From: Clostridia bacterium
GTDB taxonomy: Bacteria; Bacillota; Clostridia; Oscillospirales; Acutalibacteraceae
DNA: 52,468 bases
Assembly (NCBI GenBank): GCA_017631795.1
Contig: JAGBSO010000042.1
Span: 1 to 52,468 of the forward strand
Direction of reading: 5' to 3'
The notes beneath the pieces were generated by a model. The model had not been told where the DNA came from. It made no database searches and was given only the letters and a program-made list of their open reading frames with translations. The position numbers and the translations under genes are program-made. Shown here piece after piece: positions 1 through 13,572 of this stretch (its first letter is position 1; each line of letters opens with the position of its first letter).

Positions 1-1245
1 GTTGCCGTTTTTTGTGATAGTGAGTTTTGGCACGGGTATGACTGGGAACACAAAAAAGAAGAAATTAAATCTCGCAGAGATTTTTGGATCCCAAAAATCG
101 AACGTAATATGCAACGAGATATTGAAGTTACCGAAAAACTTACAGCTGACGGTTGGACTGTTCTCAGATTTTGGGGCAGAGATATTAAAAAGAACCCCGG
201 CAGATGTGCGGATGTGATAGAAAAGGCGGTTAAAGGAAAAATGCCAATGTATAAATCAATAGACTTATTTGCCGGTATCGGCGGAATACGCTTAGGTTTT
301 GACAGAGCCTTCGGCAAGAATATAGAAACTGTTTTTGTGAGTGAGTGGGATGAAAATGCTCAAAAGACTTACAAAGCTAATTTTACCGATGATTTTGAAA
401 TTGCCGGTGATATAACAAAAATTGAGGAAAAAGATATACCGTCTTTTGATATTTGTCTTGCAGGCTTCCCTTGTCAGGCGTTCAGCCTTGCAGGTCAGCG
501 CAAAGGCTTTGAAGATAATTACAAAGGATTGTGCAGAGGTACATTGTTTATGGATGTAGCTCGCATTTGTGAACATCATAAACCTAAAGTTATCTTCTGT
601 GAAAATGTTAAAGGTCTTGTAATTCATGACAAAGGCAGAACATTTAAAGTTATAACAAAAACTTTTCAGGATTTAGGGTATACGGTTTACAGCCAAGTAT
701 TAAACAGTAAAAACTTCGGTGTTCCGCAGAACCGAGAAAGAATATATCTTGTAGCTTTCAGAAACGATATAGCTCCCGATAATTTTATGTTCCCTGTAAC
801 AACCGACGATACAAAGAGAATTAAAGATATTATTGAAGAAGAAGCCGTTCCTGCAAAGTATTATCTCAGTGAAACATATCTTCAGACTCTGAAAAATCAC
901 AAAGCACGTCATGCTGCAAAAGGAAACGGTTTCGGTTATGAAATCAGAGCTTGGGATGATATTGCCGGTGCGATTGTTTGCGGTGGTATGGGCAGAGAAA
1001 GAAATCTCGTTGTTGACGAACGTCAGAAAGACCTTACTCCTACAACACATATAAAAGGTGAAATCAACAAAGAAGGTGTTCGTAAAATGACACCGAGAGA
1101 GTGGGCTCGTTTGCAGGGATTCCCTGACTCATTCAAGCTTCCTCTTGCAGATGTTCATCTTTATAAGCAATTCGGAAATAGCGTTACTGTAAATGTTATT
1201 GAAGCAATAGCCGAAAAAATCAAGGAGGTGCTTGATAATGCCTAA
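1..1245 (+). CDS. Vsr-type endonuclease fused to HpaII-like cytosine-5 DNA methyltransferase (5' partial)
   Basis: One uninterrupted frame runs from the window edge to 1245. The first ~75 codons are the C-terminal half of a very-short-patch-repair (Vsr) endonuclease: FWHGYDW, RRDFWIPKIERN and GWTVLRFWGRDIKKN are typical of the family, which nicks T:G mismatches left by deamination of 5-methylcytosine. The rest is a complete C5 methyltransferase with motif I DLFAGIGGIRLGF, catalytic PCQ (about 469-477), ENV, QNRERIYLV and the closing GNS. Its target-recognition part (KGNGFGYEI, GGMGRERNLV, TPTTHIKGE) closely resembles what I recall of M.HpaII, so CCGG is the likely target. No stop separates the halves, but AAAGGA at 232-237 sits 9 nt before ATG 247, so a free methyltransferase could also be made from an internal start. 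The true N terminus lies outside the window. It overlaps the downstream endonuclease gene by 8 bp. Confidence 0.88.
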   Translation, partial: VAVFCDSEFWHGYDWEHKKEEIKSRRDFWIPKIERNMQRDIEVTEKLTADGWTVLRFWGRDIKKNPGRCADVIEKAVKGKMPMYKSIDLFAGIGGIRLGFDRAFGKNIETVFVSEWDENAQKTYKANFTDDFEIAGDITKIEEKDIPSFDICLAGFPCQAFSLAGQRKGFEDNYKGLCRGTLFMDVARICEHHKPKVIFCENVKGLVIHDKGRTFKVITKTFQDLGYTVYSQVLNSKNFGVPQNRERIYLVAFRNDIAPDNFMFPVTTDDTKRIKDIIEEEAVPAKYYLSETYLQTLKNHKARHAAKGNGFGYEIRAWDDIAGAIVCGGMGRERNLVVDERQKDLTPTTHIKGEINKEGVRKMTPREWARLQGFPDSFKLPLADVHLYKQFGNSVTVNVIEAIAEKIKEVLDNA

Positions 1246-2329
1246 ATTGTCAGGAAATAAAGGCGAATGGAGCGAAATTTATGTCCTTTTCAGATTGCTT
1301 GAAATAGGAAAATTATATGCCGCAGACGCTGACCTCAATAAAATTGAAGGCGTGTTTTATAACATTTTGAATATTATAAGAACAGAGAATATCGGTGATT
1401 TGTCTTTCAGAATTGATAATGCCGAAAATAAAATCAGTATCATCAAAACAGACTCAGAAGAAATACTTCTGACGGTAGATAAAACCGAATTTAAAGCTGC
1501 TGCCGATAAGTTGTATCAGGAAATAGTAAACGCAGAGACTTCTACTTTTGTATTAGAAGATACGGAAGCATTTTTAGATAAGATTTTTATTAACACATTA
1601 AAAGCAAAGTCAACAGATAAGGCTGATATCAGAATGAAAATTCACGATATCAATTCAGGAATTGAATCCGTACAGGGATTCAGCATTAAATCAAGATTAG
1701 GCGGAGCTTCAACACTTATCAATGCCGGCAAAACAACAAATTTCTTATATGAAGTTATTGGAAACATTGATGACAGTGTAGCGGAAACATTTAACACTTG
1801 CTCTAAAAAATTCAAAGACAGATTTAATTATTTGCAGACTCAAAACTGCAGTCTGAAATTCATAAAAGCAGACCACGGTGTTTTCGAAAGCAATCTCTTA
1901 CTTCTTGACGGAAGCTTGCCGGAGATATGTGCATACATGCTGGTTGATTATTATTCAAGCGGCATTAACAAAGTTGCGGTTTCTCTTGCTAATGTTTCAG
2001 AAAAGAATCCGCTTAACTTTAATCTTGTAAACGGACAGCCATTCTATGAATACAAATTCAAGAAACTGCTTACGGAATGTGCGCTCGGTATGTTGCCCTC
2101 AACTCCGTGGAACGGAAAAGCAGATGCTACGGGCGGATACATTATCGTAAGAGAAGACGGTGAGGTTTTGTGTTATCACCTGTTTAATCGTAACGAATTT
2201 GAAGATTATCTTGTAAGCAACACAAAGTTTGAAACTGCAAGTACAAGCCGTCATCAGTTCGGTGACATTTACAAAGAAAACGGCAAGTATTACATCAAGC
2301 TTAATTTACAAGTCAGATTTATTAAGTAA
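1238..2329 (+). CDS. HpaII-family type II restriction endonuclease
   Basis: The 363-residue product matches the RE_HpaII family from the N terminus (GNKGEWSEIYVLFRLL, GKLYAADADLN) to the central block GFSIKSRLGGASTLINAGKT. Family members cut C^CGG and protect the host with a C5 methylase. ATG 1238 is chosen over the earlier TTG at 1232 because AAGGAGG at 1222-1228 is spaced correctly for it; this gives an 8-bp overlap with the Vsr-methyltransferase ORF and implies translational coupling. Genes for an HpaII-like methylase, its endonuclease and a Vsr nuclease sitting together matches what is known of HpaII-type loci. The ORF is full length with no frameshift, so the nuclease is probably functional. 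Specificity CCGG is inferred from homology only. Confidence 0.85.
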   Translation: MPKLSGNKGEWSEIYVLFRLLEIGKLYAADADLNKIEGVFYNILNIIRTENIGDLSFRIDNAENKISIIKTDSEEILLTVDKTEFKAAADKLYQEIVNAETSTFVLEDTEAFLDKIFINTLKAKSTDKADIRMKIHDINSGIESVQGFSIKSRLGGASTLINAGKTTNFLYEVIGNIDDSVAETFNTCSKKFKDRFNYLQTQNCSLKFIKADHGVFESNLLLLDGSLPEICAYMLVDYYSSGINKVAVSLANVSEKNPLNFNLVNGQPFYEYKFKKLLTECALGMLPSTPWNGKADATGGYIIVREDGEVLCYHLFNRNEFEDYLVSNTKFETASTSRHQFGDIYKENGKYYIKLNLQVRFIK

Positions 2330-2335
2330 TCGGTT

Positions 2336-3274
2336 ATGTTAAAAGTCGGAAGTTTATTTGCAGGCATCGGCGGTATTGATTTAGCCTTTGAACAGGCAGG
2401 TTTTGAAATTGCGTGGGCTAATGAGATTGATGCTGCCGCTTGCAAAACATACAGACACAATTTCCCGAAAACAAAACTTGTTGAGGGCGATATAAGAAAT
2501 CTTGATGCGAAAGCTCTCGAAAAAGTCGATGTGTTAACTGCAGGTTTCCCGTGTCAGTCATTTTCGGTATGCGGCAACCAAAAAGGATTCAAGGATTCAA
2601 GAGGTAATCTTTTCTTTGAGATAATGCGAATAGCAGATGAACTGCAACCGCAAATTGTTTTCTTGGAAAATGTTGCAAATCTTACCGAACATGATAACGG
2701 AAAGACATTTAATGTAATTCACAATGAGCTCGCAAACAGAGATTATTTCATAAGATATCTTATTGCGGATGCTTGTGATTACGGTGTTCCGCAACACAGA
2801 ACAAGGACATATATCGTTGCTTTTAAGTCGAAGGCGGCTTGTGATAAGTTTAAGTTCCCTGAAAAATGTGAGCTTACGAAGCACATATTTAATGTTATTG
2901 ATAAGACAGTAAAAGCTGATGATTCACATTATCTTTCACCCGACTCATATCAATACAAAAAATTGCTACCCGCAATAACAGACGAAGAGCAAATATATCG
3001 TTTTTCAGATTACGGTATTCAGAAGAGTAAAGACGGAATATGTTTTACGCTTAAAGCCAATATGGGCACCTGGAGAGACAGAGTTCCGTTTATAAAAGAT
3101 AATTACGGAATAAGGAAGATCACACCGCAGGAGTGTCTTGCACTGATGGGGTTCCCGAAAGAATATTCTTTCCCCGATACCGTGCCGCAAAAAGAGCAGT
3201 ATAAACAGTGTGGGAATAGTGTGGTAGTGTCAGTGATTAGAATGATTGTTGAAGATATTTACAAAGTAATATGA
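2336..3274 (+). CDS. DNA (cytosine-5) methyltransferase, second in the operon
   Basis: A compact 312-residue C5 methyltransferase. Motif I is GSLFAGIGGIDLAF, the catalytic nucleophile is Cys73 in AGFPCQSFS, ENV starts at Glu111, motif VIII is GVPQHRTRTYIVAF and motif X is GNSVVVSVI. The start lies 6 bp after the HpaII-family endonuclease stop. Its variable region (about residues 170-265) is unlike that of the first methyltransferase, so it probably recognises something other than CCGG. It could protect against the HNH enzyme further downstream, or be a second methylase of the HpaII-type locus. No nuclease is directly attached that is clearly its own. Base composition resembles the two genes before it rather than the AT-richer methyltransferase after it, which suggests that the first three genes arrived together. 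Confidence 0.85.
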   Translation: MLKVGSLFAGIGGIDLAFEQAGFEIAWANEIDAAACKTYRHNFPKTKLVEGDIRNLDAKALEKVDVLTAGFPCQSFSVCGNQKGFKDSRGNLFFEIMRIADELQPQIVFLENVANLTEHDNGKTFNVIHNELANRDYFIRYLIADACDYGVPQHRTRTYIVAFKSKAACDKFKFPEKCELTKHIFNVIDKTVKADDSHYLSPDSYQYKKLLPAITDEEQIYRFSDYGIQKSKDGICFTLKANMGTWRDRVPFIKDNYGIRKITPQECLALMGFPKEYSFPDTVPQKEQYKQCGNSVVVSVIRMIVEDIYKVI

Positions 3275-3301
3275 AAGTATAAAATTAAAGGATTTTGTTA
3301 A

Positions 3302-4552
3302 ATGAGAATTATTGATTTGTTCTCCGGTGCTGGAGGTTTGACTTTTGGTTTTTATTATAGAATAAAAGGAACTCGTTTCGTTAGAAACAGAAAAAACTCA
3401 TTTGTTTTTGCAAATGAGTTTGATTCTCATGCCGCAAAAGCCTTTTCTGCTAATTACCCTGACATAAAGATGTTAAATCAGGACATAAAAACATTGGATG
3501 CTGATAGAATCACAGAATTAATAGGAAAAGAACCTGTCGATCTTATTATTGGAGGTCCACCATGTCAGTCGTTTAGTACCGTAGGTCAAAGAGTATACGA
3601 TGATAAGGCAATGATGTATGAACAATATCTCAGAATCCTTAGTATAGTTCGTCCTAAAATGTTCCTTTTTGAAAATGTAAAGGGTATTCTTTCTATGAGA
3701 GAAACTTTTTATAAAACTGACAAAGAGGGAAACATTATTTATAAAAAAACCAAAAATGCAGAAACTGGCCGAGAAAGAAAAAAACCAATTGTAGATCATT
3801 ATGGGGAATACATAATTGAAATCATTAAAGAAAAATTCAGCAAAATTGATAATGAATTAGGCTATACAATATTTACTGAAATTCTTAATGCTGTTGATTT
3901 TGGAGTTCCTGAAAATAGGGAACGTGTTTTTATCGTTGGTATTCGCAATGATTTAGAAATAACTTGGAAGTATCCAGAACCATTAACAACAGATAAAATA
4001 AGTATAAAAGATGCTATTTCTGATTTGCCATCAGTTGGTGAGGGTGAAGAAATAACTGAATATGATCAAAATCCTAACAACGATTATCAAAGATTAATGA
4101 GAAGTAATAGTCAAAAAATTACTTGCCATTTTTGTGGAACATACGGTGATAAAATTAGAACAGTAATTAAAAATGTTAAGCAAGGGCAAGGTAAAGATGA
4201 TTTTAACAAACTTATTGAAAAAGGAATTGTTGATAAGAAGTATAAGCTTACATCGGGTTTTTCAAATACATATGGAAGATTGATAGAAAATCAACCTTGC
4301 ACTACTATTACAAATAACATGACTACTCCTTCTGGATTGCGTTGCATTCATTATGAACAAAACAGAGCGTTAACACCACGTGAAGGAGCACGTATACAAT
4401 CATTTCCTGATTGGTTTATATTTGATGGTGAAAAAGCCAATATCACTACTCAAATAGGTAATGCCGTACCACCGCTTTTAGCAATAAGAATAGCCCAACA
4501 GATTGAAAAAGTATTAGATGGAGTTGAAAACTATGGAAGAAAGCATCAATAA
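3302..4552 (+). CDS. DNA (cytosine-5) methyltransferase paired with the GHKL-TIR ATPase
   Basis: A 416-residue C5 methyltransferase with DLFSGAGGLTFGF, catalytic Cys88 in GGPPCQSFS, ENVKGIL, GVPENRERVFIVGI and closing QIGNAVPP. It is longer than the previous one through an insert near residues 130-170 and a large target-recognition region (about 235-345) with a CHFC pair. The gene is distinctly AT-richer than the three upstream cassettes, suggesting separate acquisition. Its 3' end overlaps the start of the next gene by 20 bp, so the two are very likely translationally coupled and act together. In a self/non-self scheme this enzyme would mark host DNA while the ATPase partner responds to unmarked DNA; that role is inference. 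Target sequence unknown. Confidence 0.87.
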   Translation: MRIIDLFSGAGGLTFGFYYRIKGTRFVRNRKNSFVFANEFDSHAAKAFSANYPDIKMLNQDIKTLDADRITELIGKEPVDLIIGGPPCQSFSTVGQRVYDDKAMMYEQYLRILSIVRPKMFLFENVKGILSMRETFYKTDKEGNIIYKKTKNAETGRERKKPIVDHYGEYIIEIIKEKFSKIDNELGYTIFTEILNAVDFGVPENRERVFIVGIRNDLEITWKYPEPLTTDKISIKDAISDLPSVGEGEEITEYDQNPNNDYQRLMRSNSQKITCHFCGTYGDKIRTVIKNVKQGQGKDDFNKLIEKGIVDKKYKLTSGFSNTYGRLIENQPCTTITNNMTTPSGLRCIHYEQNRALTPREGARIQSFPDWFIFDGEKANITTQIGNAVPPLLAIRIAQQIEKVLDGVENYGRKHQ

Positions 4553-6671
4553 AATTGATTTTACCTTTGGATGGTTAGCGTTGAAATTATTGGGAAAAAG
4601 TTTATATTCAAATGCATGGAGTGCCATTTCTGAACTTGTTGCAAATGGTTTTGATGCTAATGCCAAAAATGTTTATGTATATATCAATAATATTGATAAA
4701 GCAAACTCCACTATTGAATTGTTTGACGACGGTGATGGTATGGATGAAGCAGGAATGCAAACTTATGTCCGAGTCGGTTTCAATAAACGTGAAGGAAAAA
4801 CTAGCAAATCAGATGATTATCTACCTATGGGTAGAAAAGGTATAGGAAAACTTGCAGCGTTATATTTATCAGAAAACTATTATTTGCTTTCTAAAACTAA
4901 TCATAGTGATTTGAAATGGCAAATGATGTATAGAGAAAATGCAGATGATGAACAGGAACATCCTTTTTTAAGCCAAACTAACGAAGAAATAAAAATCATA
5001 TGTGATGACCAATGGAATAAGTGCAAAACGGGTACAATGATTCGCATGAATAATGTTAACTTATGCGGGTTAGGCGATGTTGCTGTTGATGCCTTATCAA
5101 GAAAGCTGTCAAACTTTTTCGCTCTAGATTCTATGAATGAACGCCAAATTCATTTGTGCGTCGTAAGTAGATATACAGATCCTATTAAGTTTGAATCCGT
5201 AAAAAAAGAAATAGCTTTCAATAACATGGCTTTTTTAGACTATAAAAAAGATAGCGTATCGTTATTAAAACAGACTATAGAGAATTGTGCAAAAAATGTT
5301 ATAGAATTTCCCTACTCAAAATTAAATGGAAATCAAACTTATAAACATTCTGTAGAAATAGAAGATTTCAATTCTATTGAAAATATTAATATTACCGGTA
5401 AAATCAAGTGTATCAACCTTGAGGGAAATGAGGTAGAAAAAGAATACAAACTTACAGGTTGGGTAGGTTTGCATAGTACAATCGAAGAAAAATTGGCAGA
5501 AAAGAATGATCCTTTGTTTACTAGAAACAAATTCTATAATCCCATACAACTTAGACTGTATGTAAGAAACAAACTCGCAATGGAAAACTTTCTTACTGTA
5601 ATTAACAACACTCAAGCTTTTGTTAATTACATCGAGGGAGAGATTCATTTTGATGTTTTAGATGAGGACGATTTGCCCGATATTGCAACATCCAATCGTC
5701 AAGGATTAGATGAGCACGACAACAGAGTCCAAAAATTAGTAGAGATTGTAAAGAAAATTGTTAATAACCTTATTAGCAAAAGGACAGATTTAGCCAATAA
5801 GATAAAAAAAGAGCAAGAAGAATTGCTTAGAAAACAAGAAGATAATGCAAAAAAGCAATTTGTTAAAGAGATTGAAACTGAGGTCGATAGTTTTTCAAAT
5901 CTTTCCAACGATCAAAAAGACACATTGACCACACTTGTCTCTAACAAAATCAAAGGAGATGTTACTCCTAAGAGTGATTATATAGTTTTTATTTCACATT
6001 CTAGTGAAGATAAAATTATTACAAACTTTATTTATCACTTGTTAAAAGCAAAGGGAGCTAACGATAAAGAGTTTTTCTACACTTCACGTGAAGACAACGT
6101 AGAACAATATAATGATGTAAACTCTCTAGCCACTCAAATAAAAAACAATATTTTAAAAGATAATGTTCTTTTACTATATTTAACGAGTTCAGCATATAAA
6201 GCAAGTGAATTTTGTATGTTTGAAGGAGGAGCAGGTTGGGCAACACGTAGTGTTGGTGAATATATATCTTTGGCACTCACATATCCTGAAATGCCTCAAT
6301 TTATAACAAACGGAAAGTTAGAATTTACTTTTGAGAACAATCGCAGTCTACCGTTAGATAGAAAAACATATCTCTTTTTGATAAAGATGTTTAATAGAAT
6401 AATTGAACACTTAAATGCAGGCAGACGTGCGAACGGTGAAGAAGAAATGCAGCTATTTGCTGAACCCAACATACCCACAGATATCGAATTAAATCGTACT
6501 GGTGAAGATATTACTAAGTATATGGATAATGATATTCTTGAGCATTGGGGATTTTACATTGCTAATAATGTGGCTGATTATATGAATAAACGTTATCCCA
6601 AAAAGACTGTTGAAGAATTGCAACTAGAAATCTCTAAGCTGCAAAAAGAAATTGAGATTTTAAATTCTTAA
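4533..6671 (+). CDS. GHKL ATPase (MORC/paraMORC-like) with C-terminal TIR domain
   Basis: The N-terminal ~400 residues are a GHKL (gyrase/Hsp90/MutL) ATPase: N-box Glu34 and Asn38 in ISELVANGFDA, Mg/ATP motif FDDGDGMDE and the lid GRKGIGKLAA. A Lys/Glu-rich coiled segment follows near 420-460, then a TIR-type domain from about residue 482 (DYIVFISHSSEDK). The stretch FCMFEGGAGWATR holds Glu564 where catalytic TIR enzymes have their NAD-cleaving glutamate. The C terminus is another coiled coil. ATG 4533 is preferred to 4518 because GGAG at 4520-4523 lies 9 nt upstream. Prokaryotic MORC-like ATPases are known in restriction-modification neighbourhoods. Here the effector appears to be a TIR module in the same chain, next to a C5 methyltransferase. 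NADase activity is a prediction. Confidence 0.8.
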   Translation: MEESINKIDFTFGWLALKLLGKSLYSNAWSAISELVANGFDANAKNVYVYINNIDKANSTIELFDDGDGMDEAGMQTYVRVGFNKREGKTSKSDDYLPMGRKGIGKLAALYLSENYYLLSKTNHSDLKWQMMYRENADDEQEHPFLSQTNEEIKIICDDQWNKCKTGTMIRMNNVNLCGLGDVAVDALSRKLSNFFALDSMNERQIHLCVVSRYTDPIKFESVKKEIAFNNMAFLDYKKDSVSLLKQTIENCAKNVIEFPYSKLNGNQTYKHSVEIEDFNSIENINITGKIKCINLEGNEVEKEYKLTGWVGLHSTIEEKLAEKNDPLFTRNKFYNPIQLRLYVRNKLAMENFLTVINNTQAFVNYIEGEIHFDVLDEDDLPDIATSNRQGLDEHDNRVQKLVEIVKKIVNNLISKRTDLANKIKKEQEELLRKQEDNAKKQFVKEIETEVDSFSNLSNDQKDTLTTLVSNKIKGDVTPKSDYIVFISHSSEDKIITNFIYHLLKAKGANDKEFFYTSREDNVEQYNDVNSLATQIKNNILKDNVLLLYLTSSAYKASEFCMFEGGAGWATRSVGEYISLALTYPEMPQFITNGKLEFTFENNRSLPLDRKTYLFLIKMFNRIIEHLNAGRRANGEEEMQLFAEPNIPTDIELNRTGEDITKYMDNDILEHWGFYIANNVADYMNKRYPKKTVEELQLEISKLQKEIEILNS

Positions 6672-6689
6672 CATAAAAGGAAAATGCTT

Positions 6690-7103
6690 ATGATAAAACA
6701 ACTAACCCACGACCCGATTTTCCTCAGCCTGAAATCGGAAGTCGCAACAAAAGAAGATTTACAAGTTGCTGAAGACTTGTTTGACACTCTTGTTGCTCAT
6801 AAAGACGGCTGTGTTGGTATGGCTGCTAATATGATTGGTGAGCGAAAACGCATTATTGCCTTTGATAATGAAGGTACATATATGGTTATGTTTAACCCTA
6901 AGATTGTCAAAAAATCAGAGCCATACGAAACTGAAGAAGGTTGCCTTTCTCTGCTTGGCGGTCCTCGTAAGTGCAAGCGTTATAAGACTATAAAAGTCCA
7001 GTGGCAGACAGCTGAATTTCAGACCCGCATCAAGACTTTCACAGGCTTTCCTGCACAGATAATTCAGCACGAAATTGCCCATTGTGACGGAGTTTTAATA
7101 TAA
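6690..7103 (+). CDS. Peptide deformylase-like protein
   Basis: A short 137-residue member of the peptide deformylase family, metalloenzymes that remove formyl groups from nascent N-terminal Met. The three family motifs are visible: GCVGMAANMIG, EGCLS (metal Cys) and QHEIAHCDG (two metal His and the catalytic Glu). The usual HExxH is intact, but the Asp of the common HEIDH form is Ala here, as the first motif also ends in N instead of Q. This short type is widespread in gut Clostridia beside normal Def enzymes. ATG 6690 is chosen because AAAGG at 6676-6680 is 9 nt upstream; ATG 6684 is too close. It sits 18 bp after the GHKL-TIR gene and 18 bp before the HNH gene, an odd position for a housekeeping enzyme. 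A role in the defence operon is possible but unproven. Confidence 0.78.
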   Translation: MIKQLTHDPIFLSLKSEVATKEDLQVAEDLFDTLVAHKDGCVGMAANMIGERKRIIAFDNEGTYMVMFNPKIVKKSEPYETEEGCLSLLGGPRKCKRYKTIKVQWQTAEFQTRIKTFTGFPAQIIQHEIAHCDGVLI

Positions 7104-7121
7104 AAATTAAGAGGAAAAAAT

Positions 7122-8150
7122 ATGGACGAAAAAGGATTTAGATGTTGGCTTCAGCAAGAAGGATACAATAACGGTACAATTAATTCCAGGGTGAGTAATT
7201 GTATTCGTGTATGTGATGCTGAAGGAGATTTGGATGAACATTATTTTGTTGATAAATGCAATTCATTGTTAGAAAAATTGACATACACTGTTGCTAATCA
7301 GCGCAATAGCGATAAACCAAAACATTGTATTCCTATAAAAGGTAATATGTTTAATGGCACAGCTACATTAAAACAAGCTGTTAATTTATATATAAAATTT
7401 TTAATGGATACAAAGTTTACCCAAACTGAAATAATGGCTAACAAAAAAACTATTGAAAAAGAAGTTGTTAAAAAAATTGTCACCACATCTCCAAAAACTT
7501 TAGATTCATATGCCCAATTTCTTGAATATTTTGATATTGACAAAAAATTGTTTTATGACTTTGGAATTGATAATACCATTTATGCATCACCAGAGTATGC
7601 TTATGAACAATGGAAAAAGCTAAAAAACCAGCTTTTAGAAAACAAACCGCTAACCATCAGAGGCTACGGAAGACAAGGAAAACATACAGAATTGTATTTT
7701 AAGTTATATTCTTATTTGTTTGATAACAGCAACATAAATGAGGATAAAACCAACAATGCTGTTCCGCGTAAAAATATACAATCCGCTACAGGTCACAGAA
7801 CAAACATTACACTTTTCAACTATCAGTGTTCTCATATTTTTGGACATACTAAGAACCCTCTGTTATTTGAAGCAGTTTGGAATATATGCTTTACTCCCAA
7901 ACTATTTGACCCATTAACCGGGCATGAAGCTAAGGGGCCTTGGCCTGAAGAGTACCAACGCATATTTATTGACAAATCCCAGCAGCGTTTTGAAAAATGT
8001 ATACTTGATTATAATGAATTTGTGAAAACAAAAAACATCTTAGAAAGAATTCCGAGATTCGTGGAAACTTTAGTCGGCGAGTATGACAGCATTCTTCTTG
8101 GAAAGTTTCAAGAAGACGCACTTGCCGAATGGCAAGAAATACGTATCTGA
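7122..8150 (+). CDS. HNH-type putative restriction endonuclease
   Basis: A 342-residue protein I recognise as restriction-endonuclease-like rather than by a named enzyme. The C-terminal third has a conserved HNH-like array: His238 in SHIFGHTKN, Asn254 in VWNI, and His268 in GHEAKGPWP. The N terminus (about 1-95) looks like the helical SAM-like domain of tyrosine integrases (GYNNGTINSRVSNCIRVCD), a part often prefixed to mobile nucleases. Spacing of 18 bp to the deformylase-like gene and shared direction put it last in the operon that starts before the window. With three methyltransferases upstream and only one other endonuclease, it may be the cognate cutter of the second or third methylase. 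It is AT-rich like 3302-6671. Substrate and partner are inference. Confidence 0.6.
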   Translation: MDEKGFRCWLQQEGYNNGTINSRVSNCIRVCDAEGDLDEHYFVDKCNSLLEKLTYTVANQRNSDKPKHCIPIKGNMFNGTATLKQAVNLYIKFLMDTKFTQTEIMANKKTIEKEVVKKIVTTSPKTLDSYAQFLEYFDIDKKLFYDFGIDNTIYASPEYAYEQWKKLKNQLLENKPLTIRGYGRQGKHTELYFKLYSYLFDNSNINEDKTNNAVPRKNIQSATGHRTNITLFNYQCSHIFGHTKNPLLFEAVWNICFTPKLFDPLTGHEAKGPWPEEYQRIFIDKSQQRFEKCILDYNEFVKTKNILERIPRFVETLVGEYDSILLGKFQEDALAEWQEIRI

Positions 8151-8188
8151 TTTTTCAATATTCTGAAAGCTTGTTTAAAACCCAATAT

Positions 8189-8608
8189 TTATAAATTGAT
8201 TATATGTTTATTTAACCTCTCCGCCATTTCCTTAAACTGTGCCGCACCACCAAAATTGTGTGTTACATAGGTAACAACCACATCCGACTGTTGTATCATC
8301 CATTTATTCCGCCAGGAGATTGCGAAGCGTTTTGGGACGGTTTCAAGGCCTTCGGGGTAGATTGTGTTTGATAAGTTGTCGTACTTATTCTTCTCTGTTG
8401 GGAGATAGGCTAAAACAACGCTGTAGGTTATGGAGTAGGTGTGAGACAGGTCTTCAAGCTGGCGACGAACCATAGTGTCAAAATTGCCGTTGTTGCCTAC
8501 ATAAAACACAGTTACATTTTTATTTTCAATTAAATTTATCAGAGTCGACCTCAGGGTCGGCTCTATTTCTTTTGGTGTGTCCTTGTGACCAAAGAAGGCA
8601 CAAACCAT
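8189..8608 (-). CDS. SLOG-family (DUF1273-like) protein
   Basis: A 139-residue Rossmann-like protein of the SLOG/DUF1273 group (YpsA relatives). Characteristic strings are FFGHKDTP at the N terminus, FYVGNNGNFD, VVLAYLPT, VPKRFAISWRNKWMI and the C-terminal NFGGAAQF. SLOG proteins bind nucleotides or nucleotide-derived ligands, and several work in defence or recombination. The gene is divergent from the XRE regulator and starts immediately beside the array of GATATATC boxes, so it is very likely a target of that regulator. Shine-Dalgarno AGGTGG lies at 8615-8620 on the minus strand. Ligand and function are unknown. Confidence 0.75.
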   Translation of the reverse strand: MVCAFFGHKDTPKEIEPTLRSTLINLIENKNVTVFYVGNNGNFDTMVRRQLEDLSHTYSITYSVVLAYLPTEKNKYDNLSNTIYPEGLETVPKRFAISWRNKWMIQQSDVVVTYVTHNFGGAAQFKEMAERLNKHIINL

Positions 8609-8627
8609 AAAATACCACCTCTTATAT

Positions 8628-8726
8628 GGGATATATCGTAATTATAGCACACAAAATACAACTATGCGATATATCCCACACGATTTATCGTAGATTTTAT
8701 TAAACTTAAATCAGCGATATATCGTA
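8628..8726. promoter_or_regulatory. Divergent control region with four operator-like boxes
   Basis: Four near-copies of a palindrome built on GATATATC lie between the SLOG and XRE starts: 8628-8640 (GGGATATATCGTA), 8666-8677 (GCGATATATCCC), 8680-8692 (ACGATTTATCGTA) and 8714-8726 (GCGATATATCGTA). The last one abuts the ribosome site of the XRE gene. Spacing, symmetry and placement at a divergent promoter beside a small HTH gene fit an autoregulated switch. Which protein binds is inference. Confidence 0.7.
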
Positions 8727-8740
8727 AAGGTGGTATGGAC

Positions 8741-8983
8741 ATGACTGTTAAACAAGCGGTTGAAAAGAGAATCATTGAACTCTGTAATGAAAGAAATATT
8801 GCAATAAATGCACTCGCAAACCTTTCAGGTGTTGCACCTTCAACTTTTTACAGTATGCTTAATGAAAAGAGTCAGAACCCCGGTGTTGCATCAATCAAGA
8901 AATTATGCGACGGTCTTGAAATTAGTATCAGAGAATTCTTTGACAGTGATTTATTTGATGATTTGGAACAAGAAATAAAGTGA
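8741..8983 (+). CDS. XRE-family HTH transcriptional regulator
   Basis: An 80-residue single-domain Cro/CI-type repressor. The helix-turn-helix is seen in NIAINALANLSGVAPSTFYS followed by the family's usual helix around SIKKLCDGLEISI; the C terminus is acidic. ATG 8741 is used because AAAGGTGG ends at 8733, while ATG 8735 would sit almost on it. A GATATATC box immediately precedes the ribosome site, so autorepression is likely, and the divergent SLOG gene is the probable co-regulated target. It may also control the large nuclease-like gene starting at 9081, which carries the same AAAGGTGGT ribosome site, although no box is visible there. Confidence 0.85.
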   Translation: MTVKQAVEKRIIELCNERNIAINALANLSGVAPSTFYSMLNEKSQNPGVASIKKLCDGLEISIREFFDSDLFDDLEQEIK

Positions 8984-9080
8984 TTTATAAATAATCTATT
9001 TTAATATAGTTGCTATTTTACAAGATGGTATGAGAAACTTATAAGCAATAACACATGGTTATACTAAAGGTGGTGTTTTA

Positions 9081-10655
9081 GTGGATATTCGGGATGTTGA
9101 AAAAATAATAGACGAAGCTCACAAAGGGCTTGATTTTTTCAAAACAAATAGAATGCAAGCAGTGTATTCTATATTATCGGTCTTTGAATATACGTGCAGT
9201 TCAATCATGATGGCAAGCGTCCTAAATCCGTTTGCATTAAAAAACATTACGGATTTAATGGATGCATTGAATATGGCATTAACATGGATAAATAAACTAT
9301 GCCCTATTTCTAACGATAGTGCTATCCAACTGGAAATATCAGAGGAATGCAATCAACAGTGTAGTGACCTTTTGAACAATTACGCATACCCTTACTCTGT
9401 AATTTGTAGCGGATATATAGCATACTCTAGAAAACGTTTCAGTGCAAATGTTATTGATAATTGTGTCACCTTTAATCTGTCTGATAACCAAAATGATTCA
9501 ACATGGAATGATATTCTTAGAGAAGCTACAAACAATGATTTAGGTAATTTGTCTGCTCTTGTTAATCCTTACGAGTTGTTGAGAGCAAGTGGCGAGATAA
9601 AAAAACATTCTACTATAGAAAACAGAATGTTGTGTTACGATCTGTCCGTCGATGTATTTGATACATTTGAAAAGATGGCGCGTGCTCAGTGGGAAGCCAC
9701 AAAGACCTTGCCAGAAAACTGGAAATTTGAGAAATTTTCTTTGGCCGAATATAAAGAGTTTTGGATTGCTTTAACTTCGTTGTGCTATGTGCATCTTTGC
9801 AGCTGTTTTTGCATTGAAGATCAGTTACTCAAATTGAAAAACAGTACTATAGTACAAAGCAAACAACATATTGTTGATTTCATCAAATTACGGACTGAAC
9901 TTGATGAAAGAAAGATACTGACGCTTATTGACTACATTACCTATGAACCACAAAAGACAAATGTTGATATCATGTACCAACCTATAATTGCGTTGAACGA
10001 TAGCACTATAATCATTACCCCTACTCTATTTATGGGTTCTCGTCCTGAACGGAATTTACTGTCAGTAGTAAGCACAAGAGGAGACAAGGAATACTTCAAC
10101 GAAGTTAATGATTTGGAAGGTTTGATGGTTTCAGAGTTGGAATCCTATGTAAAATCAGAATATATAGCAAAACATAAACATTTGCGTGATGATTTGCCAG
10201 ATCTCGATTTTGCAGTTTTAGATGAAGAGACTAACTCAGCTTTAATTTGTGAAACAAAGTGGTTTGCACCTGCTGACTCTTCAAAAGAGGTATATGCCAA
10301 GGAAGATGAAATAAATCATGGTTGTCAGCAAGTTGAAAATATCATGGCATATGCTATGTCTGACAAAAAACATTTCTTCAAGCAAGTGTTCGGTATTGAA
10401 AGCGGAGAGAGTATTGATCTGTTTTGGTGTGTTGTTGCCAAACATAATATTCGCACACAGAATAAAATCGTCCCTGTAATAGATTTGAAGCGAATTGAAG
10501 TACTTCTTTCTTCCAATTCACTTAACACCGTTTTTCACTGCATCCGGAATCATGAATACGAGATCAAGATGCCCGAAGATGTGTCGATTACATATCAAGA
10601 AATAAAATACGCTGGATTTAAGTTCAAAATACCTGCACTTTGTTTTGGGGTATAA
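9081..10655 (+). CDS. Large hypothetical protein with C-terminal PD-(D/E)XK-like nuclease motif
   Basis: A 524-residue protein from a GTG start (AAAGGTGG at 9066-9073). I do not recognise a named family. The N-terminal ~330 residues are mostly helical, with several Cys and no clear motif. The C-terminal third has the layout of a PD-(D/E)XK nuclease: Asp376 in PDLDFAVLD, then Glu391 and Lys393 in ICETKW, with a downstream helix holding Gln-rich GCQQVENIM. This resembles the nuclease core of restriction or Card1/DUF-type defence proteins. No methylase or helicase is fused. It follows the XRE gene by 97 bp and ends just before a bidirectional terminator. A defence role is suggested by the neighbourhood only. 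Confidence 0.6.
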   Translation: MDIRDVEKIIDEAHKGLDFFKTNRMQAVYSILSVFEYTCSSIMMASVLNPFALKNITDLMDALNMALTWINKLCPISNDSAIQLEISEECNQQCSDLLNNYAYPYSVICSGYIAYSRKRFSANVIDNCVTFNLSDNQNDSTWNDILREATNNDLGNLSALVNPYELLRASGEIKKHSTIENRMLCYDLSVDVFDTFEKMARAQWEATKTLPENWKFEKFSLAEYKEFWIALTSLCYVHLCSCFCIEDQLLKLKNSTIVQSKQHIVDFIKLRTELDERKILTLIDYITYEPQKTNVDIMYQPIIALNDSTIIITPTLFMGSRPERNLLSVVSTRGDKEYFNEVNDLEGLMVSELESYVKSEYIAKHKHLRDDLPDLDFAVLDEETNSALICETKWFAPADSSKEVYAKEDEINHGCQQVENIMAYAMSDKKHFFKQVFGIESGESIDLFWCVVAKHNIRTQNKIVPVIDLKRIEVLLSSNSLNTVFHCIRNHEYEIKMPEDVSITYQEIKYAGFKFKIPALCFGV

Positions 10656-10691
10656 TAGAATAAAGCAGAAAATAGAACTCAATAGTGGCTT

Positions 10692-10727
10692 AAGCCCTGA
10701 CCGTTAAAAGTCAAGGGCTTTTCTTAT
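10692..10727. terminator. Bidirectional intrinsic terminator
   Basis: AAGCCCTGAC pairs with GTCAAGGGCTT (one-base bulge) across an 8-nt loop and is followed by TTTTC. It ends the nuclease-like gene on the plus strand and can serve the convergent TnpV cassette, whose stop lies at its edge. Confidence 0.75.
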
Positions 10728-11089
10728 GCATATATTAACTCGTTACATACTATTTCTGAGACTCTTTCTTGGATGCTGTTCATTCGTCGTGCCCATTCGA
10801 GTTGATTTTGGGATTTGAGTTGTTCGGTGATGTTTTCGGATTTAATCATTTGGGCAACGAGGGTGTTGAACATCTGCCGGGCTTTGGTGTCGATTTGGGC
10901 GCAGTGTTGGTAGAGCTTGCCTTGAGCGAGGAGAGTTGTGAAGAGTACGGGGTTATATTTTTGTAAGTAGTCCTTATACATCACACCCCATTTGCCGAGG
11001 CGGACAGTTGATTCTTCAGGCGGGAGTCTGAGGTTGGGTATTTTATAATCTCCGGCTTGGCGATATGTGATTTTGATTTCGTTTTCCAT
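10724..11089 (-). CDS. TnpV family transposon-encoded protein
   Basis: This matches the TnpV family carried by Bacteroides and Clostridia mobile elements: ITYRQAGDYKIPNL, LGKWGVMYKDYLQKYNP, LFTTLLAQGKLY, LEWARRMNSI and the closing IVCNELIY. About 121 residues, the usual size. Function is unknown; the genes travel with integrative elements and genomic islands. ATG 11089 has AGGA 8 nt upstream. An alternative ATG at 11098 would overlap the previous stop as ATGA but has the ribosome site touching it. Last gene of a three-gene minus-strand cassette. Confidence 0.85.
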   Translation of the reverse strand: MENEIKITYRQAGDYKIPNLRLPPEESTVRLGKWGVMYKDYLQKYNPVLFTTLLAQGKLYQHCAQIDTKARQMFNTLVAQMIKSENITEQLKSQNQLEWARRMNSIQERVSEIVCNELIYA

Positions 11090-11094
11090 AGTTT

Positions 11095-11373
11095 TCATCC
11101 TTTCTTGTTTTCAATAAAAGTGTCGTATGTGAATCTTGCTCCGAGTCTGAAGCCGGTGGTGAAGCTGTCTGCATTGCAGAGGCTTGAAAATTTGATGCAT
11201 GTTGCTACATAGTCGGTGAAAAGCTCTCTATCCTTATCAGCGAGGAGTGATGTCAGTTGTTCCTCTTTGTCGGCAAGCTCACTCAGGCTCTTTTTAATCT
11301 TTACCGTCAGGTTGGTGGTACACTCCTGCGGCTCGATGTTTCCGTAGTAAAAATCTTCAATAAAGTCAGACAT
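11095..11373 (-). CDS. DUF6809-like mobile-element protein
   Basis: A 92-residue helical protein with DFYYGNIEPQE at the N terminus and FTTGFRLGARFTYDTF near the end, the pattern of the DUF6809 family found next to TnpV in Clostridia islands. Its AAGGAG ribosome site overlaps the stop of the preceding small gene. It overlaps or abuts tnpV, so the three are one transcript. Role unknown. Confidence 0.75.
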   Translation of the reverse strand: MSDFIEDFYYGNIEPQECTTNLTVKIKKSLSELADKEEQLTSLLADKDRELFTDYVATCIKFSSLCNADSFTTGFRLGARFTYDTFIENKKG

Positions 11374-11384
11374 ATTATCACTCC

Positions 11385-11543
11385 TTATCTTTCGGATTTA
11401 TTGATAATTTTAATGAGTAGCTCGTCAACATCTTCTGTAGGGATACCGTCCGAGAGAAGCATATTTCGGAACTCATTCATACCGTTGATTAAAAGGTTAC
11501 ATTCAAAATCTGTGAGCTTCAGTTTGGTTTTCTTATTAAACAT
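11385..11543 (-). CDS. Small mobile-cassette protein (52 aa)
   Basis: A small ORF, clearly real by context: ATG at 11543 has a strong AAGGAGG site 7 nt upstream (plus strand 11551-11557), and the product runs MFNKKTKLKLTDFECNLLI to DELLIKIINKSER. Small proteins with KTKLKLTD near the start and VDELLIK near the end accompany DUF6809 and tnpV in other Clostridia islands. It is the first gene of the cassette and begins right after an inverted repeat that can hide its ribosome site. Confidence 0.7.
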   Translation of the reverse strand: MFNKKTKLKLTDFECNLLINGMNEFRNMLLSDGIPTEDVDELLIKIINKSER

Positions 11544-11549
11544 AAAAAT

Positions 11550-11587
11550 ACCTCCTTGTATTTGGTAATACCATTTTACAAGGAGGT
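11550..11587 (-). promoter_or_regulatory. Hairpin sequestering the ribosome site of the mobile cassette
   Basis: Read on the minus strand, ACCTCCTTGTA pairs perfectly with TACAAGGAGGT (11 bp), and the loop contains a further TGGTA/TACCA stem. The right arm is the ribosome site of the 52-residue gene, so translation of the cassette should be blocked when the hairpin forms. There is no T-run, so it is not a terminator. Confidence 0.7.
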
Positions 11588-11621
11588 CTGTGTTTTGTCG
11601 AATGTGCGGGTTAGCAATATA

Positions 11622-12998
11622 TCATTGGGTGTTTTTGTTTTGCTTAAATTTAACAGGATTAATAAAATCGTTGTCTGATGATACTTCTGTCTTTTTGATT
11701 TCTTCTCTGATTATCTCTTCAATAAGCATGTCTTGTTTTTCGACGTTAGAGAGTTTTGTAACAAGATTTATACAGGATAAATATCTTTGATATTCAGAAA
11801 GTGCCTTGTGATATAAATTCATTTGAGAAAGAGATTTTTTATAAACAAGGAGTATTGTGCCAGCAAAGATTTCTACAATTGCTCCTCCTATAGACCCTAT
11901 AACAGGAATAAGAGAATTTTGTGCAGAAAAAACTGGGAATATAGGACTGATAATAGCAAATATTATAATCGCAATGCCTAAGAAACAAATTGCGATAGCC
12001 CAACGGAATGAAGTTGTTGCTTGTTTTTTGCTTATATCATAATAGCCTTTCATTTGTTTCCAATTAAATTTAAGATGTCCTAAAGGCAAATATTCCTCTT
12101 CGCCCATAGCATTTGATATTTCTGAATCAATAGCATCGTATGTATTATTGGCGTTTTTATCACTATTGGTAAAGAGTTGTAATACAGAATCTATAATATC
12201 AATTGGCAAAAAATCAAAAAAAGGATTTAGGAACTTTTTGTTACTATATTCTCTTTCTAATATTTCTAAAAGAAAATCTGTGGCTTTATCTGTTTTTGTA
12301 GGGTTCTTTGCGTTTGACAGTGACATATCTAATTCTTTGTTAAATTCTATTTTTTCTTTTTGTTCTTTTTTTCTCTTGTATTTATCAATTGAAAAGAATA
12401 CTGAAAAAATAAAACAGAGGACGGTAATAAAAGAAAGAGCGATTAGCATAAATTCTGCGGAAGATTTATAGTAAACACTGTCACCAAAATATAAAACTGA
12501 TACCGCGCAAAAGATGATTGCTACATATATCAACATCAACAAAAGTATAGCATTAAATTGTTTTCTTGCTTTTTGTTGTTTTTCCTTATATCTTTTTACA
12601 GATAATTCGGTAATACTCAAATAGTTAATAAAATCCTCCATATCTATTTGGTGATCAGAGTTAAGCAAAAACTCAATATCAATAGGTACATTGTCAATAA
12701 CTTTTTTAGATTGTGAATCAGAAAATATCCAGAAAAATCTATATTTTCTGTTTTTATTGGTGCTTTGCAATAATTTAAAGTATTCTAAATTTTCTTTTAT
12801 ATACTTTTTGGTACACACAAAAATTACAACATCAGTTTTTATTTCAAAATTTTTTATACGACGAAAAAAGTTGTTTCCGTCGTTTTTGAAAAGTGGGTAT
12901 TCGCAAATATCCCAATCGGGTTTTGATTTTGATATTTCACTATTAATGCTTTTAACTATAGAAGAACCATCCGTTGCATATGTTATGGTAATATTCAT
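11622..12998 (-). CDS. Membrane protein with TIR-like N terminus and TRADD-N-associated-type membrane domain
   Basis: A 458-residue protein. Residues 1-130 look TIR-like (ITITYATDGSSIVKSI, then TDVVIFVCTKKYIKENL), with two membrane helices at about 149-171 and 181-203. After an acidic linker, a second module carries helices at about 333-354 and 362-386, inside the conserved setting KGYYDISKKQATTSFRWAI and LYHKALSEYQRYLSCINLV. That second module resembles the TRADD-N-associated two-helix domain used in predicted bacterial conflict proteins. A membrane-damaging or signalling effector is the likely class. No catalytic glutamate of an NADase TIR is obvious. It stands alone between the TnpV cassette and ssrA, AT-rich like other island genes. 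Confidence 0.6.
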   Translation of the reverse strand: MNITITYATDGSSIVKSINSEISKSKPDWDICEYPLFKNDGNNFFRRIKNFEIKTDVVIFVCTKKYIKENLEYFKLLQSTNKNRKYRFFWIFSDSQSKKVIDNVPIDIEFLLNSDHQIDMEDFINYLSITELSVKRYKEKQQKARKQFNAILLLMLIYVAIIFCAVSVLYFGDSVYYKSSAEFMLIALSFITVLCFIFSVFFSIDKYKRKKEQKEKIEFNKELDMSLSNAKNPTKTDKATDFLLEILEREYSNKKFLNPFFDFLPIDIIDSVLQLFTNSDKNANNTYDAIDSEISNAMGEEEYLPLGHLKFNWKQMKGYYDISKKQATTSFRWAIAICFLGIAIIIFAIISPIFPVFSAQNSLIPVIGSIGGAIVEIFAGTILLVYKKSLSQMNLYHKALSEYQRYLSCINLVTKLSNVEKQDMLIEEIIREEIKKTEVSSDNDFINPVKFKQNKNTQ

Positions 12999-13111
12999 AT
13001 TTATCTATCCTTTAACTTTATATTTTGCAATGTTTAGTAAGCAATAAAATTTTTAAACATTATACCATATTATTGCTATTATCTCAACAATTTTCGACAC
13101 GCATTAAAAAC

Positions 13112-13142
13112 AAAAAAACCAAGGCTATTTCTAACCTTGGTT
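13112..13142 (-). terminator. Intrinsic terminator downstream of ssrA
   Basis: On the minus strand AACCAAGG pairs with CCTTGGTT and runs into a T-tract (plus-strand A-tract 13112-13118). A second stem, TTCAC/GTGAA plus GGCG/CGCC, lies between it and the tmRNA 3' end at 13168-13190. Confidence 0.8.
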
Positions 13143-13220
13143 CTTGTCTTTTTGTCAGAGTTCCACTTTCACGGCGAAGCCGCCTGTGAAGAAATAGTAG
13201 GTGTTCGTCTGACTTGTGTT

Positions 13221-13572
13221 TGGTGGAGATGGCGGTATTCGAAACCGCGTCCGAAAATTCATTCTCTCAGCTTTCTACGAGCGTAGCCGATAAATTAAAT
13301 CTCTCCCTTTATACGCCTGTCGGCAGGCTTATATCGGGACAGCTCCGTTATGCATGACGGGTTACGGAGACGCTTGCCCGTTCACGTTCACTGCTGATCG
13401 ACGCCTTATCCCGGTCCGCAGTACTCTCAGGTAAGACGGCAGCTATTAAGCAGCTGCTAAAACAGTTTTATTAGTGTCGTTTATTTTTAATAAACTTGCG
13501 ATTTTTATAGAGGTACCGCACCTCTGCTCGCTTACCGGGATTCAAAATCCCCGTCGAAATCCTTTCATCCCC
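13221..13572 (-). ncRNA. ssrA: Transfer-messenger RNA (tmRNA)
   Basis: The minus-strand transcript begins GGGGATGAAAGG, carries the conserved GGATTTCGACGGG near its 5' end and finishes with a tRNA-like T arm (GCGGTTTCGAATACCGC) and CATCTCCACCA. The 5' GGGGATG pairs with 3' CATCTCC (one G-U pair) to make the acceptor stem. The tag frame is at 13446-13499 and encodes ASLLKINDTNKTVLAAA with a TAA stop, so rescued proteins end in LAAA. tmRNA frees stalled ribosomes together with SmpB, encoded next door. Length about 352 nt, one-piece form. The island lies directly past its 3' end. Confidence 0.95.

Follow-up and report, generated by a model that had tools for sequence, protein, structure and literature searches.

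A C5 methyltransferase overlapping a GHKL ATPase-TIR fusion in a Clostridia bacterium: a candidate restriction-modification system with a predicted NAD+-destroying effector

Introduction

The joining of a GHKL-S5 ATPase to a C-terminal TIR domain was named paraMORC4 by Iyer, Abhiman and Aravind in 2008, who described it from sequence only, together with an Hx[ST]xD motif and restriction-modification neighbourhoods, and proposed the TIR domain as a nuclease or ligand-binding domain (PMC2292703). (Papers cited here by PMC number were available in part, and what we draw from them is limited to those parts.) The available part of that description does not mention nicotinamide adenine dinucleotide (NAD+) hydrolase (NADase) activity of the TIR domain. 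Here we analyse a gene pair of this kind on a 52,468-nucleotide contig of a Clostridia bacterium of the Acutalibacteraceae (JAGBSO010000042.1; the whole stretch is called the window below), in which a C5 cytosine DNA methyltransferase gene overlaps the gene for such a fusion. Like paraMORC4, the window protein has GHKL, S5 and C-terminal TIR regions in one chain and the Hx[ST]xD motif, and its neighbourhood is one of restriction-modification, given the overlapping methyltransferase and an adjoining HpaII-type system. To the 2008 description we add the NADase reading, a comparison of nuclease, kinase and TIR tails, and an exchange of methyltransferase partners. We propose, with a probability of roughly 0.62, that the pair functions in restriction-modification, with an effector predicted to destroy NAD+, rather than to cut DNA, at unmethylated target sites.

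Several other described systems resemble the pair in part. The BbrUII/HgiDII family likewise has a C5 methyltransferase gene next to that of the effector and a GHKL-S5 ATPase half homologous to that of the window protein, M.HgiDII being reported as a 5-methylcytosine methyltransferase for GTCGAC (PMC5867850); the window differs in having a TIR domain instead of the C-terminal nuclease and a methyltransferase of another branch. The HEF_HK/Response_reg_2 systems, with an N-terminal HATPase_c_3 and a C5 methyltransferase nearby (PMC8011034), have, judged by their described architecture, the same kind of chassis and a similar neighbour, but their tail is a histidine kinase, whereas that of the window protein is a TIR domain. 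VcSduA (paraMORC3, Shedu type I-D), which was shown by experiment to be anti-phage and to need both its ATPase and its nuclease residues (PMC12137116), likewise couples a GHKL ATPase to a C-terminal effector; that effector is a PD-(D/E)xK nuclease, however, and the available part of the paper mentions no methyltransferase partner. A further tail type is the Ymh-type HEPN domain found on paraMORC ATPases (PMC3710099), which are similar in their toxin-like tail and restriction-modification neighbourhoods but have HEPN rather than TIR. In SpbK the helical N-terminal domain recognises a phage portal protein, which is the trigger, and activity needs head-to-tail TIR assembly (PMC12847820). The window protein is like SpbK in its TIR fold, the position of a glutamate and a GxxW at the filament interface, and differs in having GHKL-S5 in place of the four-helix N-terminal domain; no methyltransferase partner of SpbK is described in the available part of that paper. 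From Thoeris the locus differs in that PADLOC gave no ThsA-type effector match among the seven window proteins with complete match lists, the three methyltransferases being outside this count.

A preliminary description, made from the sequence alone, had named no characterised system with this exact architecture. This holds for experiment: we recognised no experimental study of the GHKL-TIR architecture in an open full-text collection, which lacks the bioRxiv preprints and the greater part of the subscription literature, and no such system appears in the available parts of PMC9122126 and PMC12926258. It does not hold for the architecture itself, which has been known since 2008 and is functionally open as far as the literature search reached.

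Results

A profile scan of genome contigs with two peptide patterns taken from the ATPase half gave 512 relatives. We used the best 80 of these (L002-L081), which are not a random sample, with the tail type of each locus assigned from its best ATPase gene, and the best 80 of 81 relatives in a viral collection (L082-L161). Single-sequence scans of the genome and viral contigs did not find the relatives, which alignment-based scans recovered.

The NCBI model NF050001, which represents the BbrUII/HgiDII restriction enzymes, matched the window protein with E 7.2e-52 and 176.8 bits, well short of its cut-off of 550. Ten relatives were scanned with the same model. The three with nuclease tails cleared the cut-off over nearly the full model (L065, 797 bits; L064, 719; L055, 668), whereas the five with TIR tails (L003, L042, L006, L044 and L037), like the two with kinase tails (L030 and L018), matched only to position 365-437 of 659. 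These profile matches show the ATPase half to be homologous to the front of the BbrUII/HgiDII enzymes, and because the match spans the whole model in the nuclease-tailed relatives and stops at 365-437 in the TIR-tailed ones, the TIR domain occupies the place of the nuclease on a restriction-enzyme chassis, as had been supposed from the window alone. MORC and MutL fold matches reach approximately residue 430.

All listed fold matches of the 717-residue model fell on the ATPase half, and the TIR domain was therefore folded alone for structure comparison. Its closest solved fold is SpbK, an NADase. The candidate catalytic residue had been put forward as Glu564, counted from the ATG at 4533; it is the same residue as Glu569 counted from the upstream ATG at 4518, the numbering used here, and the corresponding position is Glu in 30/30 members of the wider TIR class. 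The Hx[ST]xD motif, H494-S495-S496-E497-D498 in the window protein, follows the first TIR strand and is not universal in that class (His in 26/30, Ser496 in 10/30, Asp498 in 20/30). The Pfam scan of the window did not call a TIR domain above the cut-off, and the tail clusters apart from the nuclease tails. The TIR is predicted to be an NAD+-destroying effector domain.

Both genes of the pair are present as previously described (Table 1). The methyltransferase matches PF00145 with E 2e-65 and the PADLOC type II model MTase_II with E 1.8e-101, and it carries PPCQ (Cys88) and ENV (Glu124), which we take to be C5 methyltransferase motifs. The second gene is best read as starting at ATG 4533, giving 712 residues and the 20-bp overlap; this start is preferred because its Met is kept in at least 90% of 43 aligned rows and because GGAG stands at 4520-4523, nine bases 5' of the ATG.

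A C5 methyltransferase gene and the ATPase gene are no more than 150 bp apart in 27/29 TIR loci, 23/23 kinase loci and 22/28 nuclease or truncated loci. As only 39/613 other genes (at least 150 aa, from 80 stretches) lie that close to one, chance adjacency is ruled out, and the outcome that would have spoken against the pairing, with most homologues unlinked, is not seen. The methyltransferase is upstream on the same strand in 22 of the 27 linked TIR loci, overlapping in 16 of these; five loci (L006, L007, L011, L023 and L029) are arranged otherwise. The 27 include L010 (7923-9997, Companilactobacillus tucceti), where an open methyltransferase gene adjoins an ATPase-TIR gene in three pieces. 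Decay in this direction, of which L010 is a single case, is what one would predict for a methyltransferase that gives protection from the effector. In L029 (3990-9631), from an Erysipelotrichaceae genome, one methyltransferase is flanked by two different GHKL-TIR genes.

When neighbours within 5 kb were compared between 16 TIR loci and the window (L039 joining the methyltransferase cluster only through its Vsr gene), no third gene family was common to more than three, and most of the small shared families came from the near-identical pairs L006/L023 and L027/L037. Since no third gene is widely common, no partner effector is apparent; the system is a two-gene unit without a visible third effector. 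The small extra peptide-deformylase-like gene (NF006670) at 6684-7103, 12 bp 3' of the ATPase-TIR gene, and the downstream gene of unknown function at 7122-8150 are both absent from the other 16 TIR loci and are ruled out as members. A minus-strand SLOG-like protein at 8189-8608, with a weak YpsA match below the cut-off, is not conserved among TIR loci either. The SLOG domains of Thoeris are receptors for NAD-derived signals, and a link of this gene to the TIR system is conceivable.

The ATPase half is found with several kinds of tail. The 80 genome loci comprise 29 with TIR, 23 with kinase and 23 with nuclease tails and five truncated before the tail, and clustering places the tails in separate families; when proteins are grouped at 90% identity, the 29 of TIR type give 27 groups and the 23 of kinase type 20. 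A second HATPase_c domain was detected by Pfam in the tails of 5/5 kinase-type proteins tested, and the gene after the kinase-type ATPase gave weak receiver-domain matches in 4/8 loci tested. Both nuclease tails tested gave weak Shedu or PD-(D/E)xK Pfam matches below the cut-off. In the viral loci, 67 are nuclease-tailed and 13 have no match to the nuclease tail, some of these being truncated.

We then asked whether the two genes have travelled together, and several comparisons indicate that they have not always done so. The closest methyltransferase found to that of the window, at 76% identity, belongs to the kinase-type locus L030, the ATPase half of which is 43% identical to the window's. 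With L002 and L003, the nearest TIR-type kin of the window, the methyltransferase identity is 56% and that of the ATPase halves 67-68%. The methyltransferase of the nuclease-type locus L064 belongs to another branch (29% identity). Trees were built by a quick method from the window together with a hand-picked set of 46 of the 80 loci (18 TIR, 20 kinase and 8 nuclease); L042 was left out because its methyltransferase is not within 150 bp. The TIR label changes twice on the ATPase-half tree and six times on the methyltransferase tree, where at least four changes are forced by well-supported branches, long branches meet and deep placements are unsure. On the latter tree the window groups with five kinase-type methyltransferases with a support of 99, and a clade of the window, L002 and L003 methyltransferases was rejected (p-AU 1.15e-6), although the clades for such tests were named after the pairwise identities had been seen. 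Further methyltransferase branches occur in L004, L029, L006/L007, L009/L037 and L011, and the pattern does not depend on the window alone. By these comparisons, TIR and kinase systems have swapped methyltransferase partners, and the earlier proposal that the pair moves as a unit thus requires amendment: it does not always remain intact. Among the methyltransferases of the window's group, the target recognition domain is in many cases almost as well conserved as the catalytic core. Identity to the window in the recognition domain and the core is 70% and 79% for L030 and 58% and 58% for L002, which suggests that the closer systems have a common target sequence, in which case an exchange would be harmless.

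The pair lies in a low-G+C island (1-13220; 0.347 compared with 0.417 beyond) that ends at the 3' end of a transfer-messenger RNA (tmRNA) gene on the minus strand (13221-13572). A search of the genome for the 20-base 3' end of the tmRNA, with up to two mismatches allowed, gave no further copy, and no integrase was found among the island proteins scanned; a TnpV gene is present at 10724-11098. Immediately before the pair is the HpaII-type restriction system (109-3274). In a frame open at the contig start (1-1245), the terminal part of a Vsr/DUF559-like nuclease, recognised as Vsr by eye and as DUF559 by Pfam, is joined to a C5 methyltransferase. The genes after it are those of an HpaII-type restriction enzyme (1232-2329) and of a second C5 methyltransferase (2336-3274), so that two C5-based systems stand side by side. 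Elsewhere in the island, a minus-strand protein at 11622-12998, in a stretch with a G+C content of 0.275, has a CyanoTRADDas_TM domain (PF20712, E 2e-11).

At E 1e-80, relatives were found in 3 of 300 genomes of the family, namely the window's own, a distant one of TIR type (L164, 36% identity) and one of kinase type (L163, 44%), in each case accompanied by a C5 methyltransferase on the retrieved stretch. At the same threshold only the window's own was found in 398 genomes of the phylum, as was the case for close methyltransferase relatives at E 1e-120 in 398 genomes of the family. This sporadic distribution fits horizontal spread. For the ATPase-TIR protein, scans of plasmid and phage records at E 1e-30 and 1e-10 gave no matching record.

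Table 1. Coordinates of the gene pair and of its parts in the window. Residues are numbered from the upstream ATG at 4518.
Feature	Position	Strand	Details	Basis
C5 cytosine DNA methyltransferase	3302..4552	+	416 aa; self-marking partner	PF00145, PADLOC
GHKL-S5 ATPase-TIR fusion	4533..6671	+	712 aa (717 aa from ATG 4518)	
Two-gene overlap	4533..4552	+	20 bp	
GHKL ATPase domain	4563..5120	+	residues ~16-201; motif residues E39, N43, D46, D70, G72, G74, G105-K111	
S5/transducer-like region	5121..5822	+	residues ~202-435; invariant R350, K352	conservation
Predicted helical linker	5721..5948	+	residues 402-477	secondary structure of model
TIR domain	5973..6437	+	residues ~486-640; HxSxD motif H494-D498	
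Candidate catalytic Glu569 codon	6222..6224	+	aligns with SpbK Glu192; invariant where present	

Discussion

The preliminary description of the pair as a methyltransferase joined to an NAD-depleting sensor of unmethylated DNA is partly supported and, for the most part, well founded. In the mechanism that we envision, the methyltransferase would mark the host sites, and the order of the overlapping frames, methyltransferase first and effector second, would allow marking of the host to precede the action of the effector. A dimer of the ATPase, if it behaves like MutL, MORC and the nuclease-tailed homologues, would clamp and inspect DNA and undergo ATP-driven closure on an unmarked site. Closure could gather the TIR domains head to tail, so that they build a composite active site like that of SpbK, and the resulting fall in NAD+ would stop the infected cell before phage release. 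The steps beyond the gene anatomy, DNA sensing, NAD+ cleavage and phage protection among them, are those that we infer.

A number of observations weigh against this interpretation. The TIR domain, for which a comparison with the pockets of known NADases had been proposed, agrees with SpbK in its fold and in the invariant Glu, but the positions of SpbK Ser121 and Ser122, modelled as NAD contacts in that protein (PMC12847820), vary in the wider class, being Ser in 9 and 10 of 30 proteins. Animal signalling TIRs take ranks 2-4 of the fold list, and the fold by itself is thus no proof of NADase activity. Linkage is also imperfect, with the methyltransferase 449 bp away in TIR locus L042 and, in the 17.7-kb stretch of TIR locus L039, a Vsr gene present and no C5 methyltransferase detected; moreover, none of the 80 viral loci has a TIR tail. 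The exchange of partners would not be tolerable for private restriction-modification pairs with different recognition sequences, and the recognition domain is clearly less like that of the window in L005 (49%, core 58%), L008 (46%, core 57%) and L056 (38%, core 55%). Finally, windowed partial correlation across 26 systems revealed no ATPase segment that clearly covaries with the recognition domain; the largest values, 0.23 with the methyltransferase core controlled and 0.44 (residues 36-65) with the whole ATPase half controlled, come from a domain that varies little and from pairs that are not independent.

The last two findings, that partners of different branches are tolerated and that no segment clearly tracks the recognition domain, would be accommodated if the ATPase-TIR protein senses another phage cue, either a phage protein or the inhibition or loss of the methyltransferase, with the methyltransferase serving as bait or restrainer rather than as the source of a mark that is read. 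SpbK itself responds to a phage portal protein (PMC12847820). We consider this unlikely, if the most serious of the alternatives, in view of the curation of the nuclease-tailed homologues as restriction enzymes, with M.HgiDII reported to mark GTCGAC (PMC5867850), and of unmodified DNA as the simplest common cue.

Alternatively, the TIR domain might not deplete NAD+ but act as a nuclease or a ligand-binding domain, as Iyer et al. proposed (PMC2292703), or produce a nucleotide signal that acts on an effector from another locus, given that signal-making bacterial TIRs exist (PMC12847820) and that a weak SLOG-like protein is encoded nearby on the opposite strand. The closest solved fold is that of the NADase SpbK, however, the Glu at the catalytic position is without exception, and the comparison of TIR loci brought out no candidate for a separate effector; we therefore regard this possibility as rather improbable. 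Least probable, in our opinion, is that the pair is mainly a selfish addiction module, in which loss of the methyltransferase would unmask host sites and the TIR domain kill the cell, with phage defence secondary: restriction-modification pairs are known to behave in this way, and the sporadic distribution and the tolerated direction of decay in L010 agree with it, but the trigger would be the same as in the interpretation that we favour, the pair adjoins another restriction system, and L010 stands alone.

The three kinds of tail invite a more general view, for and against which we see the case as evenly balanced. The methylation-reading ATPase chassis may be a plug-in sensor, the output of which is a nuclease, a phospho-relay or a TIR NADase, with methyltransferases traded between outputs. 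A whole branch of restriction enzymes would then have swapped DNA scission for suicide, and one test of self and non-self DNA would have been re-wired to different immune responses.

Restriction-modification is usually viewed as a defence that spares the cell. Were the TIR protein triggered by unmethylated DNA, methylation-based discrimination of self from non-self would feed NAD+-depletion immunity, and TIR immunity would be linked to the oldest known bacterial defence. With different tails occurring naturally on one chassis, the same kind of sensor can be compared with three outputs, and NAD+ loss would be a simple reporter for the DNA features that MORC-type GHKL ATPases recognise. The three-tail comparison and the exchange of methyltransferases sharpen the hypothesis of NAD-depleting restriction and make it easy to test.

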